Assembly: GCA_006226595.1 (NCBI GenBank)
Contig: SBGP01000115.1
Coordinates: 1 to 48,593, forward strand
Reading direction: 5' to 3'
Length of the DNA: 48,593 nt
Source of the DNA: Deltaproteobacteria bacterium
Lineage (GTDB): Bacteria; Myxococcota_A; UBA796; GCA-2862545
Part shown: positions 26,354 through 37,660 of the stretch, one piece after another
How the letters are laid out: each line of letters begins with the position of its first letter
How positions within the stretch are numbered: the stretch's first letter is position 1
Program-made: the position numbers and the translations under genes
Notes under the pieces: model-generated
The model's database searches: none
The model's input: only the letters and a program-made list of their open reading frames with translations
Told to the model about the DNA's origin: nothing

Positions 26354-28231
26354 ATGTCCCTCGAGCAGCACCTGCGCGCCCTGGAAGACTACGGCGCCGC
26401 CGAATGCACTGTCGCTGGCGCCTCGCAGACGGAGGTCGCCTCGACCACTGGCGGTGATCTCGCCGGACGCTTCGAGGCCCTCGGTCAGCGTCCTCTGCTC
26501 ACCGTGCTCGCCGACCCCCGGGTCGAGCGTGTCGAGCTCAAGGACGGCACCCTGTGCATCGCCGCCGAGCGCAAGAGTGGCGGTGGTCGCCTCACGGTGT
26601 CCTGGGGCGATGACGTCGTCGTCGACGAAGACGTGGCCCTGCCCGCCGTCGAGGCGCCGCATCAGGGGCCTGTGTTCCGGCCCGACCCCGACAGCCGCGT
26701 CGACGATCTGCGCGCTGCCCTCCACGAAGCGCGTCGCCCGCTGTTCGCGGTGCGCGAAGGCGAGGCGGTGGCCTGGTACAGCCATGGCCTGCACGGCGCG
26801 GGCATGGGTGCTCGTCCGCTCGTTGGCACCGTTCCCCCCGTCGGCGCCGAGACCCTCGGGTCGGTCGAGTTCCGCCGTGCCCATGGGGTCCGCTGGGCCT
26901 ACGTGGCGGGCGCGATGGCCGGCGGCATCGCCTCGGCCGACCTCGTGATCGCCATGGCGCGCGCGGGCCTGCTCGGCTTCTTCGGTAGCGGCGGCCTGCC
27001 GGTGCCCGCGGTGCGCGAGGCCCTCGAGCGCGTGAGCCGTGAGGCTGGCGCGGGTGCCTGGGGCTTCAACCTCCTGCACAACCCGGTCGAGCCCGCGGTC
27101 GAGGAGTCCACCGTCGACCTGTACCTCGAGTACGGCGTGCGTCGTGTCTCCGCCTCGGCGTACATGGGGCTCACCCCCGCGGTCGTGCGTTACCGCCTGC
27201 ACGGCATCCACGCGGATGCATCCGGCGAGGTGGTGTGCCCGAACCACGTGTTCGCGAAGGTGTCGCGGGCCGAGGTCGCGCAGCACTTCCTCAAGCCCGC
27301 GCCCGAGGCGATGGTCGCCGAGCTCGTCGCCGGCGGGCAGCTCACCGCGGAGCAGGCCGAGCTCGCCAAGCGCGTGCCCATGGCTTCTGACGTCACCGCC
27401 GAGGCCGACAGCGGCGGACACACCGATCGCCGGCCCCTGTTCGTGCTGCTTCCGCTGCTCCAGCAGCTTCGCGATCAGCTCGCCGAGGAGCATGGCTTCA
27501 CCGGCCGGCACCGGCCTCGGATCGGCGCGGCGGGCGGACTGGGCACCCCGGCGGCCGTGCATGGCGCGTTCGCGATGGGTGCGGAGTACGTGCTCACCGG
27601 CTCCGTGAACCAGGCCTCCCGTGAGGCGGGCACCAGCGACATGGCCAAGGAGATGCTCGCCGCGGCGGGAATGGCGGACGTCGCCACCGGGCCCGCGCCC
27701 GACATGTTCGAGATCGGCGCCCACGTCCAGGTCCTGTCCCGCGGCAGCATGTACGCGCAGCGCGCGGGTAAGCTCTACGACCTGTACAAGAGCGTCGGTG
27801 ACCTCGACAAGCTCGACGCCAAGGAGCGCGCCAAGCTCGAGAAGCAGGTGTTCCAGCGTCCGCTCGCCGACGTGTGGGAGGGCACCCGCGAGTACTGGCA
27901 GGGCCGCGACCCCAAGCAGGTCGAGAAGGCCGAGGCGGACCCGCGTCACAAGATGGCGCTGACCTTCCGCTGGTACCTGGGCATGACCTCGCGCTGGGCG
28001 CGCATGGGCGACAGCGACCGCAAGCGGGACTTCCAGATCTGGTGCGGACCCTCGATGGGTGGCTTCAACGCCTGGGTCGCGGGCAGCGAGCTCGAGGCGA
28101 TCGAAGAGCGCGGTGTGGTCGAGATCGCCGAGGCCCTGATGCAGGGCGCGGCGGCGCACGCGCGCCTCGCGTTCGCGCGCACCCAGGGCCTGCGCCTGCC
28201 GGCGGGCGCGCTTTCCGCGGGCCCGAGCTAG
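26354..28231 (+). CDS. pfaD: PfaD family enoyl-reductase-like protein
   Basis: The 625-residue protein matches the PfaD family, FMN TIM-barrel proteins related to nitronate monooxygenase that act as trans enoyl reductases for polyunsaturated fatty acid and polyketide synthases. Hallmarks are VRWAYVAGAMAGGIASADLV, GLLGFFGSGGLPV, AGAWGFNLLHNP, RVSASAYMGLTPAVVRYR, IGAAGGLGTPAAVHGAFAMG and YVLTGSVNQASREAGTS. The C-terminal third has the PfaD-specific GKLYDLYKS and FQIWCGPSMGGFNAWV. About 150 N-terminal residues precede the core. No PUFA synthase (pfaA-C) genes are within the window, so its partner is elsewhere or it works differently. The ATG follows GGAG by 8 bases, and the upstream hairpin makes it a separate transcript. 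Confidence 0.93.
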   Translation: MSLEQHLRALEDYGAAECTVAGASQTEVASTTGGDLAGRFEALGQRPLLTVLADPRVERVELKDGTLCIAAERKSGGGRLTVSWGDDVVVDEDVALPAVEAPHQGPVFRPDPDSRVDDLRAALHEARRPLFAVREGEAVAWYSHGLHGAGMGARPLVGTVPPVGAETLGSVEFRRAHGVRWAYVAGAMAGGIASADLVIAMARAGLLGFFGSGGLPVPAVREALERVSREAGAGAWGFNLLHNPVEPAVEESTVDLYLEYGVRRVSASAYMGLTPAVVRYRLHGIHADASGEVVCPNHVFAKVSRAEVAQHFLKPAPEAMVAELVAGGQLTAEQAELAKRVPMASDVTAEADSGGHTDRRPLFVLLPLLQQLRDQLAEEHGFTGRHRPRIGAAGGLGTPAAVHGAFAMGAEYVLTGSVNQASREAGTSDMAKEMLAAAGMADVATGPAPDMFEIGAHVQVLSRGSMYAQRAGKLYDLYKSVGDLDKLDAKERAKLEKQVFQRPLADVWEGTREYWQGRDPKQVEKAEADPRHKMALTFRWYLGMTSRWARMGDSDRKRDFQIWCGPSMGGFNAWVAGSELEAIEERGVVEIAEALMQGAAAHARLAFARTQGLRLPAGALSAGPS

Positions 28232-31816: not shown

Positions 31817-32275
31817 TCAGCGCGGCAGCGCGGCGATCATCCGGTCGCAGTAGGCGCGCATCTCGCGGCTGACGAAGGTGCCCACCACGGGGCCCAGTGC
31901 CTTGCCGATGAAGCGGTTCACGTCCATCGTGATCGTGATCTTGCTCCGCCAGGTCATGCGGCAGCCACCCGCTGTCGGCGCGAACGTCGCCCGCCCCTCC
32001 GACACGAGGTTGCCGCTACCGGGCTTCGTGCTCCACTCGACCGCGTTGTCGCCGACCGCCTTCCAGGTGCCGGTGTAGCGGCCCTGGAAGCTGGTCACGC
32101 CGTGGTTCTGGTTCGGAAGCACCAGCGCCAGGCTGTCGTCTCCGACCTTCTCGTACGACTCGAGCACGCCGTAGTTGGCGGCCACGACGTCGGTGTTCGA
32201 GAAGTGAGCGACTGCAGTCGCTACATCCACGGGCAGGTCGAAGGTCTCGTCGAAGGTTCCGGTGAAGTCGGCCAT
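31817..32275 (-). CDS. SRPBCC-fold protein (polyketide cyclase/START-like)
   Basis: The 152-residue protein fits the SRPBCC hydrophobic-ligand-binding fold. An N-terminal strand (GTFDETFDLPVDVATAVAHF) is followed by antiparallel strands (GTWKAVGDNAVEWSTKPG; RMTWRSKITITMDV) and a long C-terminal helix (GTFVSREMRAYCDRMIAAL). Such proteins bind or move lipids or small hydrophobic molecules. The ATG at 32273-32275 follows AGGAGG by 4 bases. It is divergent from the choline-transporter-like gene, sharing an 86-base promoter gap, so a lipid-related role is possible but unproven. Confidence 0.82.
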   Translation of the reverse strand: MADFTGTFDETFDLPVDVATAVAHFSNTDVVAANYGVLESYEKVGDDSLALVLPNQNHGVTSFQGRYTGTWKAVGDNAVEWSTKPGSGNLVSEGRATFAPTAGGCRMTWRSKITITMDVNRFIGKALGPVVGTFVSREMRAYCDRMIAALPR

Positions 32276-32311: not shown

Positions 32312-32317
32312 TATGGT
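32312..32317 (+). promoter_or_regulatory. Candidate -10 box (TATGGT) for the choline transporter/pcs pair
   Basis: TATGGT lies 44 bases before the GTG start of the symporter gene. It is identical to the box upstream of the 25414 lipoprotein gene, but no -35 is evident. Confidence 0.4.
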
Positions 32318-32361
32318 GCGCCATCGCGCGGCGAACTGCTGCGGAGGATCCTGGAGGTTCG

Positions 32362-33909
32362 GTGGAGGGCGTGTTCTGGCCCGGCGTCTTCGCGGTGTTC
32401 GCGATGTACGGCCTCGTGTTCGCAGTGGGGCTGGTCGCGGGACGCGGCGAGTCCGGCGACGCCGATCAAGACGAGGTCAGCGAGCTCTTGCTCGCCGGTC
32501 GCTCGCTGCCCCTGTGGGTCGGCCTGCTGACCATGACTGCGACCTGGGTCGGCGGTGGCTACATCAACGGCACCGCCGAGTACACCTACTCGTCGGGCGT
32601 GCTGTGGGGCGCGCAGGCGGGCATCGGCTACGCCCTGTCCCTCGTGTTCGGCGGCCTGTTCTTCGCGCGTCGCATGCGCGCGATGGAGTACACGACCCTC
32701 GTGGATCCCCTCGAGTCCCGCTACGGCAAGCAGGTCGCCGCGGCGCTCATGATTCCGGCGGTGCTCGCCGAGACCTTCTGGTCGGCGGCGATCCTCGTTG
32801 CCCTCGGGACGACCTTCGACGCCGTGATCGGCCTCGACAACCTCACCCTGGCGATCCTCGTCTCCGCGGCGGTCGCGGTCGCGTACACCGTGTTCGGTGG
32901 CCTGCGCGCGGTCGCGTATACCGACGTGGTGCAGCTGTTCTTGATCCTCATCGGTCTCGGGCTCGCGCTGCCTTTCGTCGTCGATGCCGCGGGCGGGTGG
33001 GGCGTGCTGCTCACGGCGCCCGAAGGCGGCACCGACCCGCTCGCCGGGTTCTCGTCGACCGAGGAGACGCTGTACTACGGCGACTGGTTCGTGCTCCTGC
33101 TCCTCGGCGGCATCCCCTGGAACGTGTACTTCCAGCGCGTGCTCTCCGCGCCGAACCCTGGCGCGGCGCGCACCCTGTCGCTGGCCGCCGGTGTGCTCTG
33201 CGCGCTCATGGCGCTGCCGCCGCTCATCCTTGGCCTGGCCGCGCGACACATCGACTGGATGGCGCTCGGCGAGACGGCGAATGGCGTGGCCATGGGCGGC
33301 GGCGAGGTGATCGTCGGCAACCTCACCGACAACCCGGCCTTCGTGCTCCCGTACGCCCTGCGGCTCGCGGTGCCGCTGTGGATTGCGGTGCTCGGCCTCG
33401 GCGCGGTCGCCGCGGCGGTGATGAGCTCGGTGGACAGCTCGATCCTCTCGGCCTCGTCGCTGGTCTCGTGGAACCTGTACCGTCGACTGCTCAACCCCGA
33501 GGCCACCGCCGACCAGGTCGCCCGCATCGTGCGCTACCTCGTCGTCGCGATCGGCTCCCTGGCCACGGTCGTCGCGCTCACCGTCCAGTCCGTCTCGGCG
33601 CTGTGGTACCTGTGCGGGGACGTCGTGTACTGCGTTCTCTTCCCGCAGCTCGCGCTCGCGCTGTTCGACAAGCACGCGAACAAGAGCGGGGCGATCGCGG
33701 GCTTCCTCGTCAGCGTGTTCCTGCGCCTCGGCGGCGGCGACGGCACCCTGGGCCTGCCGTCGTTCCTGCCGTACCCGGACACGGGCATCGAGGGCATCGA
33801 GTTCCCGTTCCGCACGACCGCGATGCTGTGCGGTCTGGTCACCGCGCTGGCCGTCTCCCGGCTGACCGCGAAGTCCGACCCGCCGACCCCGCTCGCCCCG
33901 CTCGAGTAG
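32362..33909 (+). CDS. Sodium:solute symporter closely resembling CHT1 choline transporter
   Basis: The 515-residue SSS-family protein has about 13 membrane segments. It follows animal CHT1 (SLC5A7) nearly position by position: TMTATWVGGGYINGTAE, IGYALSLVFGGLFFA, AYTDVVQLF, LLGGIPWNVYFQRVLS, AAVMSSVDSSILSASS and LWYLCGDVVYCVLFPQL. The aromatic residues that, as I recall, cage choline in CHT1 (Trp62, Tyr91, Trp141, Trp254) correspond here to Trp62, Tyr90, Trp140 and Trp253. It probably imports choline with sodium across the inner membrane. It lacks the long cytoplasmic C-terminal tail of the animal protein. GTG 32362 follows GGAGG by 4 bases. The next gene, 34 bases on, is phosphatidylcholine synthase, which needs choline. 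Confidence 0.9.
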   Translation: MEGVFWPGVFAVFAMYGLVFAVGLVAGRGESGDADQDEVSELLLAGRSLPLWVGLLTMTATWVGGGYINGTAEYTYSSGVLWGAQAGIGYALSLVFGGLFFARRMRAMEYTTLVDPLESRYGKQVAAALMIPAVLAETFWSAAILVALGTTFDAVIGLDNLTLAILVSAAVAVAYTVFGGLRAVAYTDVVQLFLILIGLGLALPFVVDAAGGWGVLLTAPEGGTDPLAGFSSTEETLYYGDWFVLLLLGGIPWNVYFQRVLSAPNPGAARTLSLAAGVLCALMALPPLILGLAARHIDWMALGETANGVAMGGGEVIVGNLTDNPAFVLPYALRLAVPLWIAVLGLGAVAAAVMSSVDSSILSASSLVSWNLYRRLLNPEATADQVARIVRYLVVAIGSLATVVALTVQSVSALWYLCGDVVYCVLFPQLALALFDKHANKSGAIAGFLVSVFLRLGGGDGTLGLPSFLPYPDTGIEGIEFPFRTTAMLCGLVTALAVSRLTAKSDPPTPLAPLE

Positions 33910-33943
33910 CGCGGGTTAAACACACCCGGTCTGCGAGGCAGCC

Positions 33944-34672
33944 CTGAGCGAGACTCCGAACCATCCCCGTCGCAAGAAGGCCGCGGCCTGGGGTGTGCAC
34001 ATGTACACCGCCCTCGGCCTGCCGCTCGCGTTCATGGGCGCAGCAGCGCTGGCCCGCGGTGACGCGCGCACCTTCTTCGTGATCGCCAGTGTCGCGTGCG
34101 TGGTCGACGCTACGGACGGCACCATGGCGCGGCGGGTGCGTGTGCGCGAGGTCCTGCCGCAGTTCGACGGTCGACGTCTCGACGATCTCGTCGACTTCCT
34201 GCACTTCGCGTTCTTGCCATCGCTGGCGCTTCCCGCGCTCGGCATGCTGCCCGAAGGGCAGGGATGGATCGGCGTGATCCCGCTCATGGCCTCGGGCTAC
34301 GGCTTCTCCCAGGAAGCCGCGAAGACCGAGGTGAGCTTCGTGGGCTTCCCCAGCTACTGGAACATCGTCGTCGGCTACCTGTACGTGCTCGGCGCGACCC
34401 CCGAGCTCACGGTCGGGCTCGTGGTCCTGCTCGCGATCCTGGTGTTCGTGCCGATTCACTACGTCTACCCGACGAAGGCACCGTTCCTCCAGAAGATGAC
34501 CGTGGGCCTCGGCGCGGTGTGGGCGCTGATGATGCTCGTCATCTCGCTGTTCATCACCGAGGAGTGGGCGCGCACGCTCGCGTGGGTCTCGCTGTACTAC
34601 CCGGCGTACTACACGGTGATCTCGTTCGTGCACCACCGGCGCATCCACGAGGCGCTCGGCACCGACGAGTGA
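33944..34672 (+). CDS. pcs: Phosphatidylcholine synthase (Pcs)
   Basis: This membrane enzyme of the CDP-alcohol phosphatidyltransferase family should condense CDP-diacylglycerol with choline to form phosphatidylcholine. The motif DG-x2-AR-x12-G-x3-D-x3-D is exact (Asp58 to Asp84); the x12 spacing is specific to Pcs, other family members having about 8. FPSYWNIVVGYLYVL and FVPIHYVYPTKAP also fit Pcs. I start at CTG 33944, with GAGG 5 bases upstream, because the family begins before the AWGVHMYTALG helix; GTG 33995 or ATG 34001 would cut it. That gives 242 residues, normal for Pcs. It is 34 bases after the choline-transporter-like gene, so the two form a functional pair. Confidence 0.92.
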   Translation: MSETPNHPRRKKAAAWGVHMYTALGLPLAFMGAAALARGDARTFFVIASVACVVDATDGTMARRVRVREVLPQFDGRRLDDLVDFLHFAFLPSLALPALGMLPEGQGWIGVIPLMASGYGFSQEAAKTEVSFVGFPSYWNIVVGYLYVLGATPELTVGLVVLLAILVFVPIHYVYPTKAPFLQKMTVGLGAVWALMMLVISLFITEEWARTLAWVSLYYPAYYTVISFVHHRRIHEALGTDE

Positions 34673-35707: not shown

Positions 35708-37660
35708 GTGGCGTCTGACGTCGAACTCAAGGGAACCCTGCCGCCGGCGGCCTACGAGCCGACCCCCGAAGGCGGTCGCTACGAACCCATCGTCGGCGAC
35801 GACGTGGTCATGCCCGAGCTTACCGCTCGCGCGCTGATCATCGGCGTGATCGTCGGTGTCGTGTTCGGCGCCGCCAACGCGTACCTCGGCCTCAAGGTCG
35901 GGCTCACGGTCAGCGCGTCCATTCCGGCGGCGGTCATCGGCGTGGCGGTGTTCAAGGCGCTCCGCTCCGGCTCGATCCTCGAGGTCAACCTCGTGCAGAC
36001 GGTCGGCTCGGCCGGCGAGTCGCTCGCTGCGGGCGTGATCTTCACCCTGCCCGTGCTCTACCTGTGGGGCCTCACGCCAGGCTTCTGGCCGATCTTCCCG
36101 CTGGCCATGCTCGGTGGTCTGCTCGGCGTGTTCTTCATGATCCCGCTGCGCCGCTTCCTGATCGTCCAGGAGCACGGCCGCCTGTCGTACCCGGAGGGCA
36201 CGGCGTGCGCCGAGGTCCTCGTCGCGAGCCAGGCCGGTGGCAGCTCCGCCCGCCTGCTGTTCATCGGCATGGTCTACGGCGCGGTGTACTCGGTGCTCGA
36301 GAAGTTCGGGCACATGTGGCCGGAGGAGCCCGACGTGCCCTTCGAGCGCGCTGGCTTCCGCACCAGCCTCGGCGCGACCGTGAGTCCGGAGCTGCTCGGC
36401 GTCGGGTTCATCATCGGCCCGAAGGTCGCGGCGGTGATGCTCGCGGGTGGCGCGGTCGGGTGGATCTTCCTCATCCCGCTGATCTACGCCTTTGGCGGTG
36501 CCGCGGACGTGCCGATCGCGCCCGTCGCCGGGACCCCGCCGTTCGCGCCGGACAGCGAGCTGCTCATCCGCAACATGGACAGCTTCACCGTGTGGTCGAA
36601 GTACCTGCGCTACATCGGTGCGGGTGCGGTGGCCTTCGGTGGTCTGTTCACGCTGCTCAAGTCCACGCCGGTCATCGTGCGCAGCTTCTCGCTCGCGCTC
36701 ACGGCGATGGCCGAGGGCACCGCGGAGCAGGTGAAGCGCACGGAGCACGAGCTGCCGCTGTCCTTCGTCGGCGGCGCGCTCGCGCTCATCGGGCTGCTCG
36801 CCGCCTTCCTGCCATTGCGCGCGGATGGGCAGGGCGGCGTGGGCCTTGTCGCCGGCATGGCCGTGGTCGTGTTCTCGTTCTTCTTCGTCACCGTGAGCTC
36901 GCGCATCGTCGGCCTCATCGGGTCGTCGAGCAACCCGATCAGCGGCATGACCATCGCCACCGTGCTCGTGTGCGCACTGCTCTTCGGCGCAGGTGGCGGC
37001 AAGGTGGCCGTGCTCACCATCGGCGCCCTCGTGTGCATCGCGGCGGCGATTGCGGGAGACACGTCCCAGGACCTGAAGACGGGCTTCCTCGTCGGCGCGA
37101 CGCCTCGCAGCCAGCAGATGGCCGAGATCGTGGGCGTGATCGCGGCGGCCGCGGCCATGAGCACCGTGCTCGCCCTGTTCCAAGAGCAGATCGTCTCGGG
37201 CGAGTTCAAGGCGCCCCAGGCGAACCTCATCCAGCTCGTCATCGACGGCGTGCTCGACGGCAACCTGCCGTGGGTGCTCGTCATCGCGGGGGCCGGCATG
37301 GCCTTCGCCGTCGAGATCATGGGCCTTCCGACCCTGGCCTTCGCCGTCGGCTTGTACCTGCCCGTGCACCTCGCGGTGCCGATCATGGCGGGTGGCCTCA
37401 TCCGCCTCGCGGTGGACGCGAACGCCAAGGAAGTCGTTGAGGAGCTGCGGGAGCGCGGTGTGTTGCTCGCCTCCGGCATGATCGCCGGCGCGGCCCTGGT
37501 CGGTGTGGCCAACGCGACCCTGACCTTCTTCGACCTGCCGACCACGTTGCCCCTCGGACCGCTTGCCGGCTTCGGGGGCGAGGCGTGGGCCGGTGCTCTC
37601 GCGTTCTCGGTACTCGGAGGCCTGTTCGCAGCGACCACCTGGCGTCGCGAAGCGCACTGA
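35708..37660 (+). CDS. OPT-family oligopeptide transporter
   Basis: The 650-residue protein has about 15 hydrophobic segments and the OPT/YSL pattern: LTARALIIGVIVGVVFGAAN-AYLGLKVGLTVSASIPAAVIG, EVNLVQTVGSAGESLAAG, PLRRFLIVQEHGRLSYPEGTACAEVL, SNPISGMTIATVL and AAAIAGDTSQDLKTGFLVGATPRSQQ. OPT proteins import oligopeptides or metal chelates with protons. Bacterial members of this type are mostly uncharacterised, so the substrate is open. The GTG start follows GGAG by about 6 bases. It has its own promoter box and stands apart from the peptide-ABC ATPase further along the window. Confidence 0.94.
   Translation: MASDVELKGTLPPAAYEPTPEGGRYEPIVGDDVVMPELTARALIIGVIVGVVFGAANAYLGLKVGLTVSASIPAAVIGVAVFKALRSGSILEVNLVQTVGSAGESLAAGVIFTLPVLYLWGLTPGFWPIFPLAMLGGLLGVFFMIPLRRFLIVQEHGRLSYPEGTACAEVLVASQAGGSSARLLFIGMVYGAVYSVLEKFGHMWPEEPDVPFERAGFRTSLGATVSPELLGVGFIIGPKVAAVMLAGGAVGWIFLIPLIYAFGGAADVPIAPVAGTPPFAPDSELLIRNMDSFTVWSKYLRYIGAGAVAFGGLFTLLKSTPVIVRSFSLALTAMAEGTAEQVKRTEHELPLSFVGGALALIGLLAAFLPLRADGQGGVGLVAGMAVVVFSFFFVTVSSRIVGLIGSSSNPISGMTIATVLVCALLFGAGGGKVAVLTIGALVCIAAAIAGDTSQDLKTGFLVGATPRSQQMAEIVGVIAAAAAMSTVLALFQEQIVSGEFKAPQANLIQLVIDGVLDGNLPWVLVIAGAGMAFAVEIMGLPTLAFAVGLYLPVHLAVPIMAGGLIRLAVDANAKEVVEELRERGVLLASGMIAGAALVGVANATLTFFDLPTTLPLGPLAGFGGEAWAGALAFSVLGGLFAATTWRREAH

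Follow-up and report, generated by a model that had tools for sequence, protein, structure and literature searches.

What does a bacterium do with a sodium symporter related to the animal neuronal choline transporter CHT1 (SLC5A7), and why should its gene stand directly in front of one for a phosphatidylcholine synthase (Pcs)? The question is raised by two adjacent forward-strand genes of the window, by which we mean the whole stretch of 48,593 nucleotides analysed here. A bacterial CHT is already known, namely sfCHT of Salimicrobium flavidum, reported in 2026 to carry out Na+-coupled choline transport that is blocked by hemicholinium-3 (HC-3) (PMC13220886). The first-pass annotation, which took a CHT-like carrier to be unusual in bacteria, was correct as to the type of carrier, but the surprise is gone. 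Pcs is likewise known. What seems to be new is the recurrent pairing of CHT and pcs genes, of which our searches of openly licensed PubMed Central papers found no description, and the division of bacterial CHTs according to their neighbours.

The symporter and its neighbour

The symporter gene (32362..33909, + strand) encodes 515 amino acids from a GTG, which no other common start precedes in the open frame, placed 4 nt downstream of a GGAGG (32353..32357, +) that reads as a Shine-Dalgarno-like signal. The start formerly proposed, at 32312, is out of frame and 50 nt upstream of this GTG. The protein, which matches the Pfam SSF model at 121 bits, belongs to the CHT/SLC5A7 clade of the SSS family. 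Among solved structures it scores 491.7 bits against sfCHT (9rws; 54% identity over 489 aligned residues), 364 bits against human CHT1 and 53 bits against SGLT, and BLASTP finds it 42% identical to CHT1, as against about 25% for PutP and PanF of E. coli. When PutP, PanF and a further SSF protein encoded by the genome serve as outgroup, the CHT rows of the tree, human CHT1 included, form one group at 100/100. The AlphaFold2 model (pLDDT 86) is an SSF domain with a LeuT-type fold, nearest to the human CHT1 structures (TM 0.79-0.87) and ahead of SGLT. Identities, trees and predicted fold thus uphold the CHT-type assignment made earlier, and a PutP/PanF-type identity is ruled out by the trees and the identities.

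The residues to which work on human CHT1 and sfCHT has attached functional roles (PMC11589582, PMC13220886) are conserved. The four choline-cage aromatics that had been picked out from the sequence, W62, Y90, W140 and W253, are indeed present and align with sfCHT W99, Y126, W176 and W298 and with human W62, Y91, W141 and W254; Y67 and W415 (human Y67 and W406) make the aromatic pocket complete. Conserved too are the Na2 residues A60, V63, A352, S355 and S356 (human A60, V63, A343, S346 and S347), the Na3 residues D188, D358 and S359 (human D188, D349 and S350) and the exit residues R47, Q258, R259 and S262, and every residue whose mutation abolishes or strongly reduces transport in sfCHT or CHT1 is found in the symporter. 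The protein therefore resembles human CHT1 (PDB 8J74, 9BFI-9BIM) in identity, fold (TM about 0.85), cage, Na2 and Na3 residues and the HC-3 contact E73; unlike it, it is bacterial, operon-like with pcs, and carries S412 and G419 in place of Y403 and S410 at the lid. Because of these two lid residues, sensitivity to HC-3 is not to be assumed.

The second gene (33944..34672, +) would encode a phosphatidylcholine synthase-like CDP-alcohol phosphotransferase, a membrane protein of 242 amino acids, from a CTG. Its frame has no ATG, GTG or TTG ahead of the first helix, and starting at GTG 33995, the first codon of the common kind, would remove part of that helix. CTG 33944 is the likely start, since a Shine-Dalgarno-like GAGG (33935..33938, +, again as read from the sequence) lies 5 nt in front of it and a GTG is aligned to it in a relative of the same genus (L039); the CTG may, alternatively, be a base error instead of a genuine non-ATG start. 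The 34-base gap between the genes that was noted at first holds if translation begins at this CTG, but not for any later start.

The catalytic motif (34106..34195, +), DATDGTMARRVRVREVLPQFDGRRLDDLVD, fits D-x2-D-G-x2-A-R-x12-G-x3-D-x3-D, a form compared with PMC3972451, and the diagnostic 12-residue spacing recognised in the first reading is exact. A search of all six frames of the window with the pattern DG..AR.{12}G...D...D gives a single match, and none of 200 shuffles of the Pcs protein contains it. The five NCBIfam Pcs models (NF045884-NF045888) are its top matches, at 114-139 bits, but the curated cut-off is missed for all five (best 138.7 vs 440 bits). As the scores fall below these lineage-specific cut-offs, we file the predicted protein as a Pcs homologue of another lineage, outside the five NCBIfam equivalogs. 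With the bacterial Pcs of Sinorhizobium, Agrobacterium, Legionella and Pseudomonas it shares the x12-spaced motif, the multi-helix membrane character and the five top matches, whereas it differs from them in its separate lineage, its scores (against cut-offs of 300-440 bits) and its non-ATG start. A Pfam search gave no match to PF01066. The AlphaFold2 model (pLDDT 93.5) has a CDP-alcohol phosphotransferase-like fold, the best PDB match being the phosphatidylserine synthase 7pow (7pow/7b1k: E about 1e-4, TM 0.58/0.68). A single Pcs was found in the genome.

Several other genes surround the pair. Divergent from the CHT gene is one for a START-like polyketide cyclase/lipid-transport family protein (31817-32275, -), which adjoins the pair only within the same genus, and downstream lies an OPT-family oligopeptide transporter gene (35708-37660), whose same-genus counterpart shows 87% identity. 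A stand-alone gene of the PfaD family (TIGR02814, 634 bits), which belongs to polyunsaturated fatty acid/polyketide synthesis, lies at 26354-28231, about 4 kb from the pair; none of the ORFs scanned matched a polyunsaturated fatty acid synthase.

Linkage of CHT and pcs genes in bacteria

Within the class to which the genome belongs, CHT is present in 7 of 71 genomes and Pcs in 24, and all 7 CHT genomes have Pcs (hypergeometric p 2.6e-4), while 17 of the 24 Pcs genomes are without CHT. The two genes lie within about 210 bp of each other on one strand in five of the seven CHT genomes and apart in the other two. Other genera (L040, L042, L043) keep the pair together, and three further flanking genes common to the window and L039 were not found beside it there; the pair thus outlasts the surrounding synteny.

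We also sampled a genome collection, taking the best 80 of 239 CHT relatives from many phyla and scoring Pcs within 6 kb; BetA, BetB and CudC were assigned from NCBIfam matches above cut-off. Among these best 80 of 239 loci, Pcs lies within 6 kb at 28 and BetA/BetB at 27, both being present at one; 18 have neither, and 8 are on short contigs. Of the 28 pcs-linked loci, 16 are divergent, 7 tandem and 4 convergent, and in 1 Pcs comes first. Cultured bacteria with the pair include Phaeodactylibacter xiamenensis and Flavilitoribacter nigricans, in both of which the two adjacent genes are divergently oriented. By our own estimate, the chance that a randomly placed Pcs gene lands in a given 12-kb stretch of a 5-Mb genome is about 1 in 400. 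An independent sample, the 197 genomes of the planctomycete order that holds L092, includes 13 with CHT, and all 13 have Pcs, with the exact motif, no more than 1.5 kb away; no bet genes were found in the CHT-pcs stretch of these 13 loci. Recurrence across the best 80 loci and in 13/13 planctomycetes rules out chance adjacency. The linkage, whose recurrence in other genomes the first-pass annotation had proposed to survey, thus recurs widely, in several phyla and in four arrangements.

In the Pcs tree the linked proteins are spread, together with unlinked ones, over several deep groups with strong support, so that at least 5 label changes are forced, and the CHT tree shows 5 or more changes of neighbour label on supported branches. 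These label changes argue that different Pcs lineages are involved and that the linkage has been made or lost repeatedly. Among relatives without CHT, other carriers beside pcs form no common pattern (one MFS and two cation-chloride cotransporter genes). In planctomycetes, the tandem pairs (L179-L189) keep the choline-pocket tryptophans; D358 is replaced by S in 11 of the 13 loci, S359 by A in 10 and Y90 by F in 11. Since Na3 residues and Y90 are replaced, ion coupling in the planctomycete CHTs may differ from that of CHT1.

Bacterial CHTs divide by their neighbours into a phosphatidylcholine-linked and a glycine-betaine-linked class that are nearly exclusive. Whole-genome searches detected Pcs in 1 of 26 genomes with a bet-linked CHT, as against 16 of 23 in which the CHT is linked to neither pcs nor bet. 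The Pcs-versus-bet contrast is strong if kinship is ignored (Fisher p 1e-12), but it is clustered on the tree; an independent-pairs test goes in the same direction (4.0 vs 0.3), with a median p of 0.125 from too few pairs. No pocket residues were found that cleanly separate the two classes. sfCHT (PDB 9RWS/9RWT; PMC13220886), which shares with the symporter its clade and its pocket, Na+ and exit residues, differs in this respect, as betA/betB and a CudC-type regulator, and not pcs, adjoin most of its close relatives in Salimicrobium and Halobacillus. Osmoadaptation and carbon/nitrogen supply have been put forward as possible roles of prokaryotic CHTs, their physiological roles being called unclear (PMC13220886). 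The pcs linkage in many unrelated bacteria suggests what these carriers are often for, and classes defined by neighbours give a direct, testable answer on physiological role for many genomes.

A probable choline-to-phosphatidylcholine module

We consider it very probable, judging from sequence, that the CHT-pcs pair is a choline-to-phosphatidylcholine module, in which Na+-coupled uptake feeds PC synthesis. Established directly for the pair are the gene identities, the conserved functional residues, the predicted folds, the recurrent linkage and the near-exclusion of pcs and bet, on which this reading builds. The CHT-clade protein, with its LeuT fold, would import choline driven by Na+, the substrate in vivo and the coupling being deduced from the family; choline would be caged by W62, Y90, W140 and W253 under W415 as the lid, with Na+ at the Na2 site and possibly at the equally conserved Na3 site. 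Pcs, integral to the same membrane, would then convert choline and CDP-diacylglycerol to CMP and, presumably, PC. The short gap (34 nt) and common strand suggest that the two genes are co-expressed from one transcript.

The symporter would not be alone in supplying choline. Another contig of the genome (C104; L175:5191-8234) encodes a complete ChoXWV-type choline ABC system above the NCBIfam cut-offs, with ChoX and ChoW fused in one ORF of 614 amino acids and ChoV also present. No BCCT was found in the genome, but ChoXWV rules out the idea, drawn from that lack, that CHT is the only choline importer. The carrier had also been described as dedicated to Pcs; this is not supported, and Pcs may obtain most of its choline by another route, because the genome encodes ChoXWV as well. 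No PEMT-type methyltransferases were found in the genome. The pair is akin to the ChoXWV and Pcs of rhizobia and Brucella, where choline uptake likewise feeds Pcs (PMC3972451, PMC8371380), but there the importer is an ABC system and here a Na+ symporter, which would join ABC ChoXWV and the other choline suppliers already known for Pcs.

Three other readings have to be weighed. Choline might be imported mainly for glycine betaine or catabolism, with pcs adjacent by chance or through old synteny, as betA/betB stand near the CHT gene at about one third of the bacterial loci and several GMC oxidoreductases related to BetA are encoded in the genome. None of its proteins reaches the BetA cut-off, however (best 456 vs 732 bits), just 1 of 26 bet-linked genomes has Pcs, and the pcs linkage, found in several phyla, in different orientations and in all 13 planctomycetes, outlasts synteny; we regard this use as very unlikely. 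It is slightly less likely still that the carrier's solute is something other than choline, for instance ethanolamine or a different quaternary amine. Sequence cannot prove the substrates of SSS proteins, and S412 and G419 do replace human Y403 and S410 near the lid, but the choline-cage residues of CHT1 and the pocket and exit residues tested in sfCHT are all identical, and the neighbours found across the family, Pcs and BetA/BetB, all use choline although their two pathways are unrelated.

The remaining doubt concerns the second gene, whose product might be another CDP-alcohol phosphotransferase, for instance a phosphatidylserine synthase, and would then not make PC. The best solved fold is of that kind and the NCBIfam Pcs cut-offs are missed; against this, the top five matches are Pcs models and the pssA model does not reach E 0.001, the Pcs-typical x12 spacing is exact, and the gene recurs beside a choline carrier, all of which leaves this the most improbable of the three.

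Relation to the neuronal transporter

Human CHT1, the one animal sequence in our CHT trees, comes closest to the pcs-linked CHTs of planctomycetes (51% identity), and in the unrooted tree it groups with planctomycete CHTs and one spirochaete row at 97/84. Adding PutP, PanF and another SSF protein as outgroup shifts it to the base, where a long-branch warning applies, and the mixture tree that includes outgroups is saturated. A root was thus dropped, as the long branch of the human row pulls it towards the outgroup, and because this pull and the saturation make any root unsafe, we claim no direction of descent. One might speculate that bacterial CHTs have long and widely served to feed PC synthesis and that the neuronal transporter of animals arose from one of them, planctomycete-like and linked to pcs. 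We think this combined proposal unlikely; if true, a membrane-lipid choline pump would later have been turned to acetylcholine recycling. Three bacterial CHTs (L092, L099 and L178) are 50-51% identical to human CHT1, the homologues screened in PMC13220886 being 34-38% identical, and bacterial CHTs at this level of identity are possible models for drug-binding work.
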